In this document: piece after piece, positions 3,321-37,201 of the stretch
How the letters are laid out: each line of letters starts with the position of its first letter
Numbering within the stretch: position 1 is the stretch's first letter
Source of the DNA: Minisyncoccota bacterium
GTDB lineage: Bacteria > Patescibacteriota > Minisyncoccia > Phycocordibacterales > CAJBRS01
NCBI GenBank assembly: GCA_017881075.1
Contig: JADGRH010000006.1
Span: 1 to 48,153, forward strand
Direction of reading: 5' to 3'
DNA length: 48,153 bases
The notes under the pieces: model-generated
Databases searched by the model: none
What the model saw: the letters and a program-made list of their open reading frames with translations, nothing else
Told to the model about the DNA's origin: nothing
Program-made: the position numbers and the translations under genes

Positions 3321-3908
3321 TTAGGATAAAAGGCCAAGTTTATCCAGGACCCCCTGGTGGGGGTAATCAAGGATGTCCCGTAGTAGTTTATCCCCCATAT
3401 TAAGGCGATATTGGAATTCAGCCGTTTCCAGAGCCACATATTTGATCTCCTTTCCGATTTCCGCTTCCAGATGTTTAATGAGATTCTCCAATGTCCTTTT
3501 CTTTATTCTATCGGCCACCACTAAAAGGTCGACTCGGCTTTCCCAATCCTGAATAAACACCCCGGCCAAGACCACTAATTTTAAACGGCCAATCTTACTG
3601 AGTTTCTTTAAGATGTGTTCTTGTTGTAAAGCAGTAATATTAATTAAAAGATTCTGAAGAGCTTCCAGGTATGAAAAATCTACGTTCAAAATCCAACCTG
3701 AGATTCTTTTGCCCTTCAGTTTGAAACTGCGTCGCTTGATTACTTTTGTCTTTTCCAGAAGCCTACACTCCCTTCGAACAATCGTTGACCGCACTTTAGT
3801 CCTGTCGGCGATCTCTCTCGCGTCAAATGGCAGATTGGGATTAAAGAGAAAGAGTCGCATGATCTTGACCTTGGCCTGACTGCCGAAGAGATTAGATAAG
3901 GTTTCCAT
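3321..3908 (-). CDS. Winged-HTH transcriptional regulator with C-terminal nucleotidyltransferase-like domain
   Basis: METLSNLFGSQAKVKIMRLFLFNP...FDAREIADRTKVRSTIVRRECRLLEKTKVIKRR; start at 3908 preferred over 3935 because the longer N-terminus runs into the rplL terminator. Confidence 0.6.
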   Translation of the reverse strand: METLSNLFGSQAKVKIMRLFLFNPNLPFDAREIADRTKVRSTIVRRECRLLEKTKVIKRRSFKLKGKRISGWILNVDFSYLEALQNLLINITALQQEHILKKLSKIGRLKLVVLAGVFIQDWESRVDLLVVADRIKKRTLENLIKHLEAEIGKEIKYVALETAEFQYRLNMGDKLLRDILDYPHQGVLDKLGLLS

Positions 3909-9249: not shown

Positions 9250-11343
9250 TTATACGGCGCTCAAGTATTGGCTTCCAGCTGAAGTGTGCTGCTCGTCAAG
9301 ACTGGATGTGTAGAACTGGTCAGGTGTGGTATCGGTGGTGGTTTCATCGTAGTTTACACCACTTAGCCATACCTCATGGAATGCATTATTACCAGTTACA
9401 ACCACGGAGAGTGTGAATGTTTCCGTATCACCCTCGTGGATTATCCAAGCACCGCTATCATCTGGATTGACATCCGCAGTTGAGGTTACATCACAAGAAT
9501 TAGTTGATGTACCGCTAACTGTGTAAGCCGTGCCAGAATCAGCAACTGACGGAGTAGATGAAGCATCACAGCCCTTATTGACACTGATGTCTTCACCGAA
9601 AGCAGTCAACTCGTATTTCAGAACATATGTTCCTATATCAGGAGAAGCGTCTGATGCTACAAGTGAATGTGTTCCGCTAACAAAGTTGAAGCTTAAGCCA
9701 TTAGACTGAAGAGTCTGGACTTTGCCTGTAACTGTGCCAGCGCCACTCATGTCAACGGTTTCTGTAGAATCTACGCCTTCAGCATCAATGGTTGTGCCAT
9801 TAATTGAAGCGTGTAATACCGTGCCGTTGTCGTAATTAGTCCCCTGTGGTCGAAGTTTGACCGTCACCTTAACATCCTCTGATCCCTTATTGCCAGGAAT
9901 AGTGATATCTCCACTATTGAAGCTGAAGTGATAGGTAGAGGTAGCGGTAGAACCATTGGTAAAGTTCGGAAGGTTATCGGTAACGCTGTCAGAAGAAAAA
10001 GTCTGGCCATTAACTGTAACCGTGACATCGTTAGCTATGCTGTTATCGATAGTAGTTGGCTGATTTCCGCCAGCTACGTCGGTAGCAGAGAGAACAAGGT
10101 CAAAGCTGTTAACTTGAATAGCTTCAGAGCTGGAGTTTGTCTTGAGTTTGAAATCAAAGACTTCTGCATCAGTGGAGTTATTCGCATCAACTTGAATGGA
10201 TCCTGCGGCAGGAGTAGCTGAAGAAGACAAAACATTTAGAGTGTTCTGTGCTCCGGCAGCATCAATGCTGAATGAGGCAGGATTTGTGCCTTCTCCAATA
10301 GAGGTGTCAACACCGGCACCGTCAGTAAATCTTAGGCCGTCATTACTACCTTCATTGGTAGCCGCATAGACATCCCAATCGGCGTCAGTGCCAGCTCCAT
10401 CAACGGAGGAAGCGACATCAACTTTAACCCAGAGATCTGCCTTGGCATTCTTTCGGAAAACGGCATTAACTCCGGTCAATCGAATGCGGTAGATATTGTT
10501 GTCTGAAGTTTCATTCCAGTCGCTCTTGGTATCAGCATTTGCATGAGCAAGAACTGTAGAACCATCCATCAGATAGACTTGAGTAAAGGTCTTCCATGGA
10601 CTTTTAGTTCCAGGAGAAGCATTACCTGATCCATCAAAGATAAGGTCTACGCGAGAAAGCGAAGCATCGGCATCATTGACGTCAAATTTGATTTCAGCTA
10701 CAGCCGCTTTGTTTTGACCTTCATTGAGAGTGGTGTCACTGGCATCCTTCAATTTGAAGTTGTCAATAGATGTTTCACCTCCCATCAGTGGGCCGCCGTT
10801 ATCAACGGTTGTGCCTCCACCGCCTGAAGTCATTGAATCACACTTCACTCCAGTTGTTGGGCTGAAACCTAATGTTGAGGTACATCCGGCTGGAAAGTTA
10901 GTTGTGGCTCCACTGTCACATCGTGCTCCAGTTGTAGAGCTGAAACCTGCTGTTGAGGTACAACCTGCTGGAAGATTCGTAGTCATGGTCATGTGGCTAT
11001 TGATATAAGCCATAGTGATAGGACCAAAATATCCAACTGAAGGTGTAATACCTACGCTAGCTTGATAGGCTCCGAGGGCGGCTTTGGTCAAATTACCAAA
11101 GTAACCCATAGCTGTGCCCGCAGGCATAACTAGGAAACCTTTCTCTACCAAGAAGCCTTGAAGGGCTACTACGTCTGCTCCGGTTGAACCGATGGTTAAA
11201 GATCGGCTGAACTGAGTCATGACGGTGCCAGGTGCGTTGAAGTTGTTGATTACTGTATCAGCGGCTACCAAAGTAGTCATGCTGAGAGCAAGAGCAAACA
11301 CGGCAACAACCACGGCAATATTTCTTACTTGTTTATTTATCAT
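9250..11343 (-). CDS. Exported surface (S-layer-like) protein with peptidoglycan-binding domain
   Basis: Signal peptide; 'LTIGSTGADVVALQGFLVEKGFLVMPAGTAMGYFGNLTKAALGAYQASVGI' PG_binding_1-like; long Ser/Thr/Asp-rich beta region. Confidence 0.75.
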   Translation of the reverse strand: MINKQVRNIAVVVAVFALALSMTTLVAADTVINNFNAPGTVMTQFSRSLTIGSTGADVVALQGFLVEKGFLVMPAGTAMGYFGNLTKAALGAYQASVGITPSVGYFGPITMAYINSHMTMTTNLPAGCTSTAGFSSTTGARCDSGATTNFPAGCTSTLGFSPTTGVKCDSMTSGGGGTTVDNGGPLMGGETSIDNFKLKDASDTTLNEGQNKAAVAEIKFDVNDADASLSRVDLIFDGSGNASPGTKSPWKTFTQVYLMDGSTVLAHANADTKSDWNETSDNNIYRIRLTGVNAVFRKNAKADLWVKVDVASSVDGAGTDADWDVYAATNEGSNDGLRFTDGAGVDTSIGEGTNPASFSIDAAGAQNTLNVLSSSATPAAGSIQVDANNSTDAEVFDFKLKTNSSSEAIQVNSFDLVLSATDVAGGNQPTTIDNSIANDVTVTVNGQTFSSDSVTDNLPNFTNGSTATSTYHFSFNSGDITIPGNKGSEDVKVTVKLRPQGTNYDNGTVLHASINGTTIDAEGVDSTETVDMSGAGTVTGKVQTLQSNGLSFNFVSGTHSLVASDASPDIGTYVLKYELTAFGEDISVNKGCDASSTPSVADSGTAYTVSGTSTNSCDVTSTADVNPDDSGAWIIHEGDTETFTLSVVVTGNNAFHEVWLSGVNYDETTTDTTPDQFYTSSLDEQHTSAGSQYLSAV
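10839..10994 (-). repeat. Two tandem 78-bp (26-aa) Cys-containing units inside the surface protein
   Basis: 'NLPAGCTSTAGFSSTTGARCDSGATT' / 'NFPAGCTSTLGFSPTTGVKCDS'; DNA period 78 bp. Confidence 0.8.
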
Positions 11344-11753: not shown

Positions 11754-12497
11754 TTAAATTAAAGAGTACCTGCTCCAGCGGCGCTCGCCGGCTTTCTTTA
11801 GGCGTCCTTCTACCACCATCCTTTGAAGCTCTCTTTGAAGGGTCTTCTCGCTGCAGTCTTTAAAAACAGAGCTAATATCCTTAATGTTCAGATCACTCTT
11901 ATCTCTAAGCAGAGAGAGAATGGCTTCTTGGCGATTGTCCCTCGACTTCACTTGGGACATGTCCTTTAGGTGTCCTTGTCCTTTATCCCGAGCAAGTTCA
12001 AGGGATTGTCCTTTTGTATCTAGATTTGTCCTTTTATTCAAATTATCTGAAAGCCTGGGATCATTAGAAATTTTAAAGAGCTTTTCATCTAAAATAAAGT
12101 TGCTATCCATCAGATAAGGCTCTTCATGCTTCTCTATCATATTAATAAGGTTTTCAAACTCCCTATTTAAGATCTTAAAATTCATACTGGACATCAGGGC
12201 TGAATTTGAGCTCACTTCAGATAAAGAGACTATCTCCAAAACTTTGGCGGTAAAACCGCGTAGAATATTTTTACGTTCCGAAAATGCTTTAATGGGCAAT
12301 GACAAAATGTCTTCCAGAAGAGTAACGGCCTTAGCTCGAATGCCCCATTTAAGAGGTTCCGCTTCTGGAAATAGATTGGTGACCATGTAGATGGCATTAA
12401 TGAGACTCTGGGTCTTCTTATATATAAAAACTAAGTAATTATCACTCTTAAAAAGGCTTAGGCTTGCGATATTTAAATTGTCTTTTTGAGCGTCCAT
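11754..12497 (-). CDS. HTH transcriptional regulator (DeoR-like C-terminal winged helix)
   Basis: C-terminus 'RQEAILSLLRDKSDLNIKDISSVFKDCSEKTLQRELQRMVVEGRLKKAGERRWSRYSLI'. Confidence 0.7.
   Translation of the reverse strand: MDAQKDNLNIASLSLFKSDNYLVFIYKKTQSLINAIYMVTNLFPEAEPLKWGIRAKAVTLLEDILSLPIKAFSERKNILRGFTAKVLEIVSLSEVSSNSALMSSMNFKILNREFENLINMIEKHEEPYLMDSNFILDEKLFKISNDPRLSDNLNKRTNLDTKGQSLELARDKGQGHLKDMSQVKSRDNRQEAILSLLRDKSDLNIKDISSVFKDCSEKTLQRELQRMVVEGRLKKAGERRWSRYSLI
11936..12034 (-). repeat. Cluster of AAAGGACA motifs within the regulator coding sequence
   Basis: + strand TGTCCTTT at 11960, 11977, 12007, 12027; TGTCCTT at 11971; TGTCC at 11936; palindrome GGACATGTCC at 11955-11964. Confidence 0.8.
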
Positions 12498-12579
12498 GTC
12501 CTATAGGTTTATGTCTTTTAATTGTGTCCTTTATAAGGAAATTATTTGTCCATTATATATAGGACAGGCGCTTCGTCAA
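12497..12579 (-). promoter_or_regulatory. Promoter of the HTH regulator with operator-like palindromes
   Basis: Minus strand TTGACG (12574-12579), 16-bp spacer, TATAAT (12552-12557); TGTCC-N10-GGACA (12547-12566) covers the -10; TCCTT-TAT-AAGGA (12527-12539); TGTCCTATAGG at start codon. Confidence 0.6.
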
Positions 12580-12631
12580 CATGTTTTGTTAAATAGGTAT
12601 GTGGATAGATAATGTGTTAAAATATCTGAAA

Positions 12632-14791
12632 ATGGCGAAAAATAAGAAATATAAAGACAAGAAAGAGAAACGGAATTTCAATCTTTTTCGAGATCTGAAA
12701 GAAGACACCATGCGCGGAGTATGGTCAGTTTTATTTTTCGTTATTTCCCTCTTTTTTCTGCTCGCCTCAATGAATGTCGGCGGAGTGGCCGGCAATAAGA
12801 TCTATATTCTTTTCTCTTATCTTCTCGGTTTAGGTTATTTTCTCATTCCCCTTCTTTTGTGTTTGTTGGCAACTTCATTCATCAGAAGCGAACGTCGATC
12901 ATTTTCTTTATCCAAACTAGCTGGGGCGATTATTTTTTTGTTGGCCAGCTTAGGACTTTTAAATATGTTGGGTGAAAATGATGGAGGCGTAGTTGGCATC
13001 TTTGTTTCCAATCCTCTGATCAAACTCTTTGATGTTTATGCAAGCTACATTTTCTTAATCGGTTTAGTGATAATTTCCCTCTTCATTATCTTTGACACCA
13101 GTGTGAGGAAAGAGCATTTTTCGGCTGGATGGTTTCGACGGCTTTTTGGCAAGAAAGAAATGGGGGTGGCGCCAGTAAGTCTCTTCGAGTCATTACCAGA
13201 AGAGATTGTGGAGAAAGAAAAATCAGAGACTCTGAAAGAAAAAGTTTTTGGTAAACCGAAAGAGACACCGACACCCGGAGCGGAACCTGCCTTCGCCATT
13301 TCATCAAAAGGTTTCTCTCTTCTGGGCAAAAAGTTTGTGCCCCCTCCCCTCTCTATTCTAGAGAATGACCGAGGCAAGCCCGGCGTTGGTGACATCAAAG
13401 CCAATGCTAATATTATTAAACGGACTTTGCAGAACTTCGGCATTGATGTGGAGATGGATGAGATTTCCATCGGTCCGTCCGTCACCCGATATGCTTTGAA
13501 ACCGGCTGAGGGAGTAAAACTTTCTCGTATCCTTGGTCTTCAGAATAATTTAGCCCTAGCTTTGGCAGCTCACCCTATTCGTATTGAAGCGCCCATTCCC
13601 GGTAAATCTTTAGTCGGTATTGAAATACCAAACAGTATTAAAACTACGGTCGGCCTCGGCACACTTTTGGCCAATGAGGAATTTCAGAATTCCGACAAGC
13701 CTCTTCTGGTTTCATTAGGTAAAGGAATATCCGGACGATCTCATTTCGCCAATCTCGATAGGATGCCTCATCTTCTTATTGCTGGCGCCACCGGTTCGGG
13801 AAAATCGGTTACCATTCATGCCATCCTGACCTCTCTGCTCTATAGAAATTCTCCGGAAAATTTACGATTCATCATGATTGACCCAAAAAGAGTGGAGCTT
13901 ACGATGTATAACAAAATTCCTCACCTATTAACACCGGTCATCACCGACGCCAAAAAGGCCATTCTCTCCCTTAAATGGGCGGCCAAAGAAATGGAACGCC
14001 GTTACGACATCCTGGAAAAAAACTCTGTACGCGACATTCATTCCTATCATAAAAATATTTTGGCTAAGGACCCTAAAAAAGTGGAGGTCCTCCCATACAT
14101 TGTCATTGTCATTGACGAGTTGGCCGACATCATGAGCACCTACCCGAGGGAATTGGAATCAGCCATCGTGCGCTTGGCTCAGATGAGTCGGGCTGTTGGC
14201 ATTCATTTAATGCTCTCTACTCAACGCCCTTCCGTAAACATTATCACCGGCCTTATCAAAGCAAATATTCCGGCCCGAATCGCCCTGCAGGTTTCCTCGC
14301 AAATCGATTCACGCACCATCTTAGATACCTCCGGCGCCGAAAAACTCCTCGGCGCCGGCGACATGCTCTACCTTTCCGGCGAGATGTCCACTCCACAAAG
14401 AATTCAATCGGCTTTTATTACCGAGGGTGAAGTGAAAAAAGTGGTGAATTATCTGATTAATAATTACAAAGACGAGATACCGACATCGGAAATTAACCTT
14501 TCCGGCGAATCAGGAAGAAGCGCTGTTGGCGACCCTGTCTTTGATTCCGGTTTTGCCAAAGAAGATCTTGGGGACGATGATGATTTGTATGAGGAGGCCC
14601 GCGAGATCGTCCTTCATGCCGGTAAGGCTTCCACTTCTTACATCCAGCGAAAACTGCGAGTTGGCTATGCTCGAGCGGCGCGACTGATGGATATGCTTGA
14701 GGAACGCGGAATCATCGGGCCTGGTGATGGCGCCAAGCCGCGGCAAGTGATCGGTTACGACGCCAACCCGACAGCCGATGAAGAGGTCTAA
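12632..14791 (+). CDS. ftsK: DNA translocase FtsK/SpoIIIE
   Basis: 'HLLIAGATGSGKSVTIHAILTSLLYRNSPENLRFIMIDPKRVELTMYNKIPHLLTPVITD' and C-terminal gamma winged helix. Start 12632 (MAKNKK) preferred to 12599. Confidence 0.95.
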   Translation: MAKNKKYKDKKEKRNFNLFRDLKEDTMRGVWSVLFFVISLFFLLASMNVGGVAGNKIYILFSYLLGLGYFLIPLLLCLLATSFIRSERRSFSLSKLAGAIIFLLASLGLLNMLGENDGGVVGIFVSNPLIKLFDVYASYIFLIGLVIISLFIIFDTSVRKEHFSAGWFRRLFGKKEMGVAPVSLFESLPEEIVEKEKSETLKEKVFGKPKETPTPGAEPAFAISSKGFSLLGKKFVPPPLSILENDRGKPGVGDIKANANIIKRTLQNFGIDVEMDEISIGPSVTRYALKPAEGVKLSRILGLQNNLALALAAHPIRIEAPIPGKSLVGIEIPNSIKTTVGLGTLLANEEFQNSDKPLLVSLGKGISGRSHFANLDRMPHLLIAGATGSGKSVTIHAILTSLLYRNSPENLRFIMIDPKRVELTMYNKIPHLLTPVITDAKKAILSLKWAAKEMERRYDILEKNSVRDIHSYHKNILAKDPKKVEVLPYIVIVIDELADIMSTYPRELESAIVRLAQMSRAVGIHLMLSTQRPSVNIITGLIKANIPARIALQVSSQIDSRTILDTSGAEKLLGAGDMLYLSGEMSTPQRIQSAFITEGEVKKVVNYLINNYKDEIPTSEINLSGESGRSAVGDPVFDSGFAKEDLGDDDDLYEEAREIVLHAGKASTSYIQRKLRVGYARAARLMDMLEERGIIGPGDGAKPRQVIGYDANPTADEEV

Positions 14792-29856: not shown

Positions 29857-31341
29857 ATGCATTCACGATATATTGACTCCCGGATCAAACAGATCTGGAA
29901 CGACGAAAACAAACTCATGCTTTGGCAGGAAACCGAGTTGGCTGTGCTAAAGACTCGGGCAGACATGGGAGAAATCACGCAGGAAGAATACCGATCCATT
30001 GAGGGTGTTTTGAACATCACTCCAATCGACATGGGGTTCTGGCGTGAAAGAGACGCGGTCTTGAATCACGATCTCAATGCCTTCCTGGAAGAGCGCAGCA
30101 GGCACTTGCCGCTTGCGTTGAGAAAATATTTTCACAAGGACATGACCTCTTACGACACGGAGGAAGCGGCATTCACTCAAATGTTGCAGCGGTCGGCAAC
30201 ATTTGTTATCGATGAGGTTGTAAGTCTGATGGAAATTCTGCGACAAAAGGCTATGGAGTACCGTTACGTCCTCAAGATGGGACGCACTCATTGTCAACAA
30301 GCAGACCTTCAGACATTCGGGCAAGTGCTTCTGACTTGGTATCAGGATCAGTTCATATGCTTTGACATTCTGAAGTTCGCCAAATCATATTTGAGAGCTT
30401 CCAAACTCTCTGGAGCGATTGGAAATTACACCGGCCTCTCTCCTGAAATGGAGAGGAGGGCGTTGGAAATCCTTAAACTGACTCCGTGGTATGGCGCAAC
30501 TCAAATTATGCCTCGCCACCGTTTCTCTGTTCTTGCCATCAGCTTAGTTTCCACCGTGATGAGCTTGGACAAACTTGCGACCGAATTCAGATTGGGTAGT
30601 CGCAATCCATACCCTCTCTGGCAGGAACCTTTCGGTAAAAAGCAGAAGGGTTCGAGCGCCATGCCGCAGAAAAAGAATCCAATCGGCACCGAAAAGGTGG
30701 AAGGAATGGGAAGGATGGCTAAGGGATACTTGCTGATGCTGGTGGATAACATTCGGACGTGGGAGCAACGTGCAATCGAGCAATCCTGCGTCGAGCGAGT
30801 GGCCTGGCCAGATCTTTTCCATGTCACTATCCATACACTGAACACTATCAGAAAGGTGGTTAGTGGCATGCGAGTCTATCCCGAGAACATGTTGCGAGAT
30901 ATTGCCGAGTCGCGAGGATGCTACGCCGCGAGCGAAGCAAAAGAGCGTTTGGCCGATATTCTGACCCCTCACGGTCTGGAGCGAGAGGATGCTTACCGCA
31001 TCGTCCAATTGGCGGCTTTCAATGCCTTTGAGCCAGCTCCGAACATTCGGAAATACCACGACCAAAGACCGGGATCTTTGGCGGAAGCTAGAGACAGCCT
31101 GGAAGGGTTTGGGGGATTGGAATCTCCAGTTCCTCCTTCTCTGTTGTCCATCATTACCAATGGACACCTCGAGGTTTCGGATCAATTGGAACCCAATCGA
31201 AAGCAAGTGGTGCTATGGAATGCAATCTTGTTTGAGGTCTTCAAAGACAAGAACATTGACCAAAGCTTCAAAGAGGTCTTCTCGCCGGAGTACCTGCTTC
31301 GGCATGAGGCGACTCTCTACAAGGAGATTCTCGGAGTTTGA
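29857..31341 (+). CDS. purB: Adenylosuccinate lyase
   Basis: Fumarase/ASL superfamily signature 'GSSAMPQKKNPIGTEKVEGMGRM', 'MGRTHCQQADLQTFGQ'. Confidence 0.9.
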   Translation: MHSRYIDSRIKQIWNDENKLMLWQETELAVLKTRADMGEITQEEYRSIEGVLNITPIDMGFWRERDAVLNHDLNAFLEERSRHLPLALRKYFHKDMTSYDTEEAAFTQMLQRSATFVIDEVVSLMEILRQKAMEYRYVLKMGRTHCQQADLQTFGQVLLTWYQDQFICFDILKFAKSYLRASKLSGAIGNYTGLSPEMERRALEILKLTPWYGATQIMPRHRFSVLAISLVSTVMSLDKLATEFRLGSRNPYPLWQEPFGKKQKGSSAMPQKKNPIGTEKVEGMGRMAKGYLLMLVDNIRTWEQRAIEQSCVERVAWPDLFHVTIHTLNTIRKVVSGMRVYPENMLRDIAESRGCYAASEAKERLADILTPHGLEREDAYRIVQLAAFNAFEPAPNIRKYHDQRPGSLAEARDSLEGFGGLESPVPPSLLSIITNGHLEVSDQLEPNRKQVVLWNAILFEVFKDKNIDQSFKEVFSPEYLLRHEATLYKEILGV

Positions 31342-35473: not shown

Positions 35474-37201
35474 TCACATCTTTTCCGGTACTTGGATGCC
35501 GAGTAGATAAAGACCATTTTTGAGAATAACGGAGACAGCCGATGTTAGTGCCAGACGATATTTTGAATTATCGTCTTTGGGATCAATGATGTGGGTATTG
35601 GCGTAAAAAGCGTTGAAGGCGGCAGCAACTTCGGTGAGGTAGGTAGTGAGGTGATGGGGTTCACATTCATTTAGAGAGCGGTCGACAATAGAGGGGAAAC
35701 GATAGAGGAGGCGCTCTAAATTTGTAACCTCACCCCCACCCTCTCCTTGAAGAAAAGGAGAGGGAGAAGGCGCCATCCCCTCTTCCTTTGCTTTTCGTAA
35801 AACAGACTCTGCTCGCGTATTGGCGTACTGAAGATACGGCCCCGAATCCCCTTCAAATGAAAGAGATTTTTCAATATCAAAAATAATATCCTTGCCCGTT
35901 TTTTGTTTCAGAATGGAATATTTGATTGCCCCTATCGAAACCATTTCTGCTACATTCTTTCTTTCTTCTTGCAAAAAATCCCGATCTTTCATCTTCTCCT
36001 CGGCTCTCTTCTTCGTTTCTTCAAGAAGAGATTCGGCAGTGACTATCTGTCCTGTGCGAGAGGACATTTTACCAGAAGGTAGGCGTAGCATGCCGTGCGA
36101 AATATGTTTGGTCTTATCCGCTAACTTCGGATTAGTAAATCCAAGAGCTTTCAAAAGCACTTTGAAATATTCATTAATCTCATTCGCAGTAACAACAATA
36201 GAAAGATCGTATGGAAATACTTCATATTTCATTTCGGCCAGAGCCAATTCTTTTGCCTCATATGTAGGCAGTCCCTGACTATTAATGAATACTCGAGTAT
36301 GCAGGCCGGATTTTGATTCAGGAAAAACAATGGCTCCGTCACTTTCTTCAAAGACTTTTTTATCCAAGAATCTATTGACTAATTCCTGTCCGCGCGGCGC
36401 AGCCGCGCTTTCAAAGAAATATTGATCAAATTTAGTGCCAAGTTTTTGATAGATCTCTTCAAAATATTCTAGGCTCCATTCACGCCCTTTATCATAGAGA
36501 TCATTCACTTCCGCATCGCTTCTATCGTAGATTTTTTGATTTATTTTCTTCACTTCGGCATCGTCGGCCAAAGCTTCCTTGTGTCGTGTGGCCCCCAAGG
36601 CATAAGCCTCCCCTAGATATTTGATCTTCTCGGATAAGGTCGCCGCTTCCCCCGGAAACGACTTATCCATAAGCCGAATGCCCCAAATGGTAAGAGCCAC
36701 ATGCCTGCCGACATCACCTTGATAGCAAACTCTTTTTACCTCTGCACCGGCAAAACCAATGATTCGGGAGATTGATTCGCCAATAGTATTACTCATTAAA
36801 TGACCAATATGGAATTGCTTGAATGGATTGGGATCGGTATATTCAACCAGAATAAGCTTACCTTTCAGTGTTTCGTTTCGGCCGAAATTCTCCGACTTCT
36901 GGAGAATTTCGGCCACACTCTCGGCAAAGAATTTTGGCGATAGATAAAAATTAATAAAACCCATTCCGGCCACTTCTACTTTTGAAATTTCCGGCGGAAG
37001 CTTTTCATTTATCTTCCCCACAATCTCAACTGCAAGAGATAAGGGTTCCCTTTTTAATTTCTTACCCAGAACCAGGGCGATATTCGAAGAATAATCCCCA
37101 TGAGTTAGATCGTCGGGATATTCCAATTGAATGTTGTCGGCCTCAAGATTTAGGCTTCGCAAGGAATCTTCAATCAAAGTCTTTAGTTTTTCCACTGCCA
37201 T
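35474..37201 (-). CDS. argS: Arginyl-tRNA synthetase
   Basis: 'LVEYTDPNPFKQFHIGHLMSNTIGESISRI', 'LQYANTRAESVLRKA'. Confidence 0.95.
   Translation of the reverse strand: MAVEKLKTLIEDSLRSLNLEADNIQLEYPDDLTHGDYSSNIALVLGKKLKREPLSLAVEIVGKINEKLPPEISKVEVAGMGFINFYLSPKFFAESVAEILQKSENFGRNETLKGKLILVEYTDPNPFKQFHIGHLMSNTIGESISRIIGFAGAEVKRVCYQGDVGRHVALTIWGIRLMDKSFPGEAATLSEKIKYLGEAYALGATRHKEALADDAEVKKINQKIYDRSDAEVNDLYDKGREWSLEYFEEIYQKLGTKFDQYFFESAAAPRGQELVNRFLDKKVFEESDGAIVFPESKSGLHTRVFINSQGLPTYEAKELALAEMKYEVFPYDLSIVVTANEINEYFKVLLKALGFTNPKLADKTKHISHGMLRLPSGKMSSRTGQIVTAESLLEETKKRAEEKMKDRDFLQEERKNVAEMVSIGAIKYSILKQKTGKDIIFDIEKSLSFEGDSGPYLQYANTRAESVLRKAKEEGMAPSPSPFLQGEGGGEVTNLERLLYRFPSIVDRSLNECEPHHLTTYLTEVAAAFNAFYANTHIIDPKDDNSKYRLALTSAVSVILKNGLYLLGIQVPEKM
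35739..35764. repeat. Inverted repeat in frame in argS
   Basis: CCCTCTCCTT-GAAGAA-AAGGAGAGGG, translated as PSPSPFLQGEGGGEV. Confidence 0.8.

Follow-up and report, generated by a model that had tools for sequence, protein, structure and literature searches.

A candidate origin-binding regulator of Patescibacteria whose gene carries an array of its putative binding sites

Why should the gene of a DNA-binding protein carry, inside its own coding sequence, a cluster of the same short motif that lies at its promoter? The question is raised by a regulator gene of 247 codons for amino acids (11754–12497, − strand) in a 48,153-nucleotide stretch of a Minisyncoccota bacterium contig, which as a whole is called the window here (C5:1-48153). 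The original prediction placed four copies of an 8-mer in the gene and one upstream, and they are found exactly there: AAAGGACA occurs on the − strand at 11960, 11977, 12007, 12027 and 12525, and also at 3492 and 45982 of the window. The further core claimed at 11971 is present, and other GGACA/TGTCC cores lie at 11936, 11955, 12189, 12497, 12547 and 12562, with GGACATGTCC spanning 11955–11964. The intragenic array (11936–12034, − strand) comprises GGACA on the − strand at 11936, 11960, 11971, 11977, 12007 and 12027 and on the + strand at 11955, and its copies are spread over all three reading frames. An isolated GGACA core (12189–12193, + strand) lies in the region coding for the N-terminal domain, which is enriched in the motif among homologues (see below).

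The clustering is far from that of random sequence. The gene with its upstream region (11754–12599) holds 12 GGACA/TGTCC cores against 1.4 expected, while among 300 dinucleotide-shuffled versions of the window no 860 bp had more than 8. Four AAAGGACA fall inside 75 bp, and no more than two did so in any of 300 dinucleotide shuffles. The genome-wide count, a test set beforehand in the original prediction, gave 32 copies of AAAGGACA in 716 kb (6 contigs) and 29 of the reversed control; the 8-mer is thus at chance frequency overall and its clustering at the regulator gene is the signal. The same count rules out a repeat spread over the genome, such as a DNA uptake sequence. The tandem pattern TGTCCNWTAN{0,30}TGTCC was found at 6 places in the genome, four of them at the regulator locus (control 0), and no enrichment was found at dnaA and parB as targets of the motif.

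The upstream sites have the layout of an operator. A sigma-70-like promoter was predicted on the − strand at 12552–12579 (TTGACG, 12579–12574; N16; TATAAT, 12557–12552; 11/12 in a consensus scan), and the inverted repeat TGTCC-N10-GGACA, which the original prediction had seen over the −10 box, encloses TATAAT at 12547–12566. The TGTCC motifs claimed at the leader and start codon correspond to two − strand half-sites, TAAAGGACA at 12525–12533 in the leader and TATAGGACA at 12497–12505, which overlaps the start codon (GGACATG). Inverted repeats of the form TGTCCN{9,12}GGACA number only 3 in the genome (control 1). The two others, at 31145–31166 and 36048–36066 of the window, are isolated and probably due to chance.

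Comparison with homologues revealed conservation of the motif at the DNA level. In the null model employed, codons were swapped for synonymous ones from local usage while each of 66 homologous proteins was kept fixed. In the linkers of these homologues GGACA was observed 121 times against 45.0 expected and TGTCC 36 times against 8.3, which are ranks 1 and 2 of the 1024 5-mers; the N-terminal domains gave the same two ranks, with 54 against 19.6 and 42 against 14.3, and GGACA ranked first in the helix-turn-helix (HTH) region (40 vs 15.9) and in the upstream DNA of homologue loci (76 vs 17). A held-out set of 26 genes gave 85 GGACA against 30.5 expected, rank 1 over the gene and rank 2 in the linker. 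The enrichment is limited to the gene, about 225 bp upstream and a short stretch past the gene end, and the coding sequence of the neighbouring ftsK, taken as control, has none (19 vs 28.9 expected). Flanking bases lengthen the half-site to TAWHGGACA. Among 80 named relatives (Zambryski-, Taylor-, Kaiser- and Nomurabacteria and other Paceibacterota/Parcubacteria), a set that may overlap with the earlier homologue sets, 66 have at least three cores in the gene, where 1.3 are expected. The inverted repeat is present in ten of the relatives, mostly enclosing TATAAT, in the same architecture as in the window.

These counts bear on two readings in which DNA is not the functional form of the motif. 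The first is that the copies stem from repetition in the linker peptide, or from chance. The linkers are rich in [KNI]G[HQ] and [KS]D, and the recurrence of the frame-0 reading [KNI]G[HQ] is what a protein repeat would leave; the two peptides are nevertheless one DNA word read in different frames, and a linker glycine before His or Gln is encoded by GGA in 72 of 85 cases, compared with 52 of 185 elsewhere in the linkers. The original prediction argued from the three frames that protein repetition is a poor explanation, and the synonymous-codon null goes further and rules a protein repeat out in the 66 homologues and the held-out genes. With the enrichment on both strands, the held-out set and the shuffles also speaking against it, we give protein repetition or chance hardly any credence. 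In orthologues, moreover, the DNA motif persists while the linkers vary in residues and length, the pattern that had been proposed as a check: they run from 19 to 132 aa and are barely alignable. Only about half of the homologues have at least three sites in or near the linker proper, and some have sites near the start instead.

The second reading is that the motif acts in mRNA, either in a CsrA-like manner or through an mRNA bound by its own product. Proteins with the Avd fold, to which the N-terminal domain belongs in our model (see below), are able to bind RNA, and the in-gene sites are mainly sense-strand GGACA, as the linker counts reveal. The antisense TGTCC is, however, the more enriched of the two over the null (4.3x vs 2.7x), the promoter repeat encloses a −10 box, and arrays also occur in non-coding origin DNA, so regulation at the RNA level is very improbable. 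Enrichment of both motif strands with the protein held fixed points to double-stranded DNA as the functional form.

What kind of protein would read such sites? The 247-aa product falls under every Pfam and NCBIfam cut-off: the scores were 14.3 bits for PF22296 bAvd (cut-off 40), 13.0 for NF033474 Avd (cut-off 80) and 15.8 for HTH_DeoR (cut-off 21), although HTH_DeoR matches 41 of 48 homologues at E≤0.1 (best 4e-8). An AlphaFold2 model from the 48-sequence alignment (mean pLDDT 82, pTM 0.52) has a four-helix bundle at residues 20–123, a disordered linker and a winged helix at residues 181–247, all encoded on the − strand (12129–12440 for the bundle and 11757–11957 for the winged helix). The linker, residues 130–180 (11958–12110; pLDDT mostly <60), bears most of the array. 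Structural matches of the bundle are 2gsc (Z 15.9), 2rld (15.6) and Avd 4dwl (14.7), with unrelated bundles at 12.5 or less; by these matches the modelled N-terminal domain is an S23/Avd-like four-helix bundle, and the modelled C-terminal fold is a winged helix, in line with HTH_DeoR in relatives. The N-terminal fold is thus common to the regulator and the Avd/S23 (bAvd-like) proteins, and the regulator differs from them in that the bundle is joined via a disordered linker to a winged helix. Characterised Avd/S23 members are pentamers, and by analogy the regulator is probably a pentamer as well. A reading as an accessory protein of a diversity-generating retroelement was set aside, as the fold is the only feature seen to be in common. 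No sugar-effector domain was found in the regulator. No Rep/RctB initiator domain (Pfam/NCBIfam) was found in the window protein or among the matches listed for 48 relatives, and the window protein gave no ParB match (ParB_N).

Of 42 order genomes, 39 have a detected homologue, as do 122 of 285 genomes in the class. Going by sequence, the regulator is a conserved DNA-binding protein of Paceibacteria-type Patescibacteria, which are tiny and mostly uncultured. The ftsK gene (12599–14791, + strand) adjoins it in 28 of 28 order loci. Downstream of the regulator, window positions 9250–11343 encode a secreted-looking 697-aa protein with a peptidoglycan-binding-like N-terminus, and 44 of 71 class loci have a homologue of this protein near the regulator.

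The tandem pattern TGTCCDWTA-N0-30-TGTCCDWTA gave 124 arrays in the 42 order genomes; its reversal gave 2. Judged by known gene positions, about nine in ten lie either at the regulator gene or in the xerC-xthA-cca-tRNA-yraN neighbourhood; about one in ten fall outside both assignments, some because of short contigs. In the genome of the window, the second locus, which lies outside the window at C5:136-139 kb, has a triple array (C5:136338-136368) in the DNA separating the 3′ ends of xthA and cca, and a further site at C5:138429. Rfam revealed only tRNAs at the cca-yraN locus. Across the class, tandem arrays occur in 61 of the 70 genomes where a strong homologue was detected and in 14 of the 156 where none was (Fisher p 1.6e-31, the genomes not being independent). 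The arrays track the homologue, which ties the motif to the protein. The regulator is most likely the binder of the half-site TAWHGGACA. Tandem GGACA half-sites were also seen within the cca (tRNA nucleotidyltransferase) coding sequence (loci L142, L143, L144, L145, L155, L156). At the class level, single tandem matches lie in or near ftsA/ftsZ, smc, xerC, priA, uvrD, mutY and mur-like genes (L163, L164, L165, L166, L172, L174, L177, L178); these scattered matches may be chance or a wider regulon. A competence or DNA-repair regulon, considered for the class-level matches at yraN, xthA, uvrD, mutY and priA, was rejected, the order arrays being mostly at two loci.

The second locus bears marks of a replication origin. 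Its distance from dnaA, compared in five order genomes, is 28–38 kb. Cumulative GC skew reaches its lowest value at 83.5 kb in G287, a complete genome in which the array is at 83.1 kb and yraN at 84.2 kb; on the far side of this genome the skew becomes negative again. The minimum in the genome of the window, at 138.2 kb, is within 2 kb of the locus. The agreement is looser in G247, where the minimum (241.8 kb) is 4 kb off the array (237–238 kb) and a single changepoint fit (222.8 kb) is 15 kb off; in G044 the changepoint alone agrees (86.2 kb, array 85.8–86.7 kb), the skew minimum being near the edge of the stretch. Of 30 order genomes, 26 have a DnaA box upstream of yraN, where the DNA is 66–68% AT compared with ~59%. 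The aligned origin element reads AAAAC-TGTGGATAA-ctcTGTGgATAtgtgtaTAAA[GA]GACA, that is, a strong box, weaker boxes and a half-site abutting the last box, and [AG]GACA begins 29–32 bp from the strong DnaA box in 19 of 23 genomes. Palindromes resembling parS (at most 2 mismatches) adjoin the element, and in six whole genomes (G000, G287, G247, G044, G263, G192) such sites occur at the cca-yraN locus only. In the genome of the window, C5:138403-138470 (L141 5904-5971) packs a DnaA box, a second and weaker box, TAAAGGACATGTCTTTTA and the genome's single parS-like site into ~70 bp, and is the probable oriC. Elsewhere, parS-like palindromes lie inside the yraN coding sequence at codon positions ~+46, +161 and +188 (L142, L150, L167, L169, L175, L205, L209); as they recur at the same codon positions, parS seems to be codon-embedded too.

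On these sequence features, the origin of the order is probably at cca-yraN. A DnaA-box cluster is also present at dnaA, which is ordinary for an autoregulated dnaA; given this cluster, a bipartite origin is possible. The original prediction viewed the sites as a self-binding operator array, with cooperative or looping repression from inside the gene. The nucleotide-level array through the coding region stands, and its restriction to own-gene repression or looping is too narrow, because an array is also present at a second locus with replication-origin marks.

Could the protein still be an ordinary local transcription factor, repressing its own gene and cca/yraN, for which the overlap with an origin is incidental to the position of yraN? 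An inverted repeat that spans a −10 box, as here, is a classical operator. G117 belongs to another order of the class; there the array stays at yraN although the skew flips 70–150 kb from it, at a position closer to dnaA, and a search of that genome revealed no parS-like site. This mismatch means that the link between array and yraN extends beyond the demonstrated link between array and origin. What a local factor does not account for is the fixed spacing between DnaA box and half-site, the co-location of arrays with parS, and the position of arrays inside the cca coding sequence and, in the genome of the window, between the xthA and cca 3′ ends, away from promoters. We regard a purely local factor as unlikely.

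Less likely still is a role in segregation or in the nucleoid, where an autoregulated protein would organise the origin region or tether it, for instance together with ParB or FtsK, and would have no part in the timing of replication. Sites adjoining parS, a gene adjoining ftsK and a multivalent protein architecture would all suit such a factor. Nevertheless, a canonical ParB is already encoded separately in 41 of 42 genomes, and the conserved half-site abuts DnaA boxes, not parS. A centromere binder as such was rejected, since a separate ParB exists and the regulator has no ParB match.

The reading we prefer, and consider likely though well short of certain, is an autoregulated origin-binding regulator whose putative sites form inverted repeats across the −10 box of its promoter and arrays both within its gene and at oriC; it would probably be a previously unrecognised regulator of chromosome replication. 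The computation shows a conserved motif, a mostly two-locus distribution, origin-like marks and the domain structure. By analogy, binding to the inverted half-sites TGTCC-N10-GGACA over the −10 box would repress the promoter and make the level of the regulator self-limiting. The form that binds oriC would be an oligomer, probably a pentamer, in which several winged helices hang on long flexible tethers and could tolerate the variable spacing and orientation of the half-site clusters. Bound there, where a half-site follows the DnaA-box cluster at fixed spacing beside parS, it would control DnaA-dependent initiation. The intragenic array would be a second docking or titration site, which could repress, sequester or bridge to oriC, like control iterons. 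Somewhat less than evenly favoured is the wider proposal of a new, conserved replication gatekeeper family in this Patescibacteria order, which would sense its own level or gene copy via the linker-codon array, coupled to oriC beside the DnaA boxes.

No prior description of the protein, the motif or the origin was found in the open-licence literature, and essentially no studies of replication control in Patescibacteria were found in the literature searched. A recent study of these bacteria takes dnaA as origin marker (PMC12102498). With cca-yraN as probable origin and a named candidate regulator, the proposal becomes testable. The regulator would represent a new origin-binding family, its unusual feature being a site array encoded in its own linker. 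If true, a disordered linker whose codons double as the protein's own DNA-binding array would be an unusual overlap of coding and regulation, kept over class-level divergence.

The closest parallels are the iteron plasmid Rep proteins and RctB of Vibrio cholerae, which combine origin repeats, an operator at the initiator's own promoter, winged helices and inhibitory control sites; the own-promoter operators are inverted half-iterons in plasmids and a 29-mer before rctB (PMC5395669, PMC3688505). The candidate sites described here likewise comprise direct repeats at a probable origin and inverted half-sites at the regulator's own promoter. The regulator differs in that no Rep/RctB domain was found in it, in the S23/Avd fold of its other domain, in the presence of a DnaA-box origin, and in the extra array within its own coding sequence. 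CtrA of Caulobacter is an origin-binding transcription factor. AdpA of Streptomyces is likewise a transcription factor binding at oriC (PMC3411110). Like both, the regulator would be a transcription-factor-like protein acting at oriC beside DnaA boxes and at its own promoter; unlike them, it shows no sign in its sequence of kinship with their families, and it has far fewer target loci and an array embedded in its own gene. At incA of P1 and datA of E. coli, sites for an initiator or regulator are clustered at a distance from the origin, and the cluster can titrate the protein or pair with the origin, whereas the cluster described here lies in the reading frame of the regulator itself.
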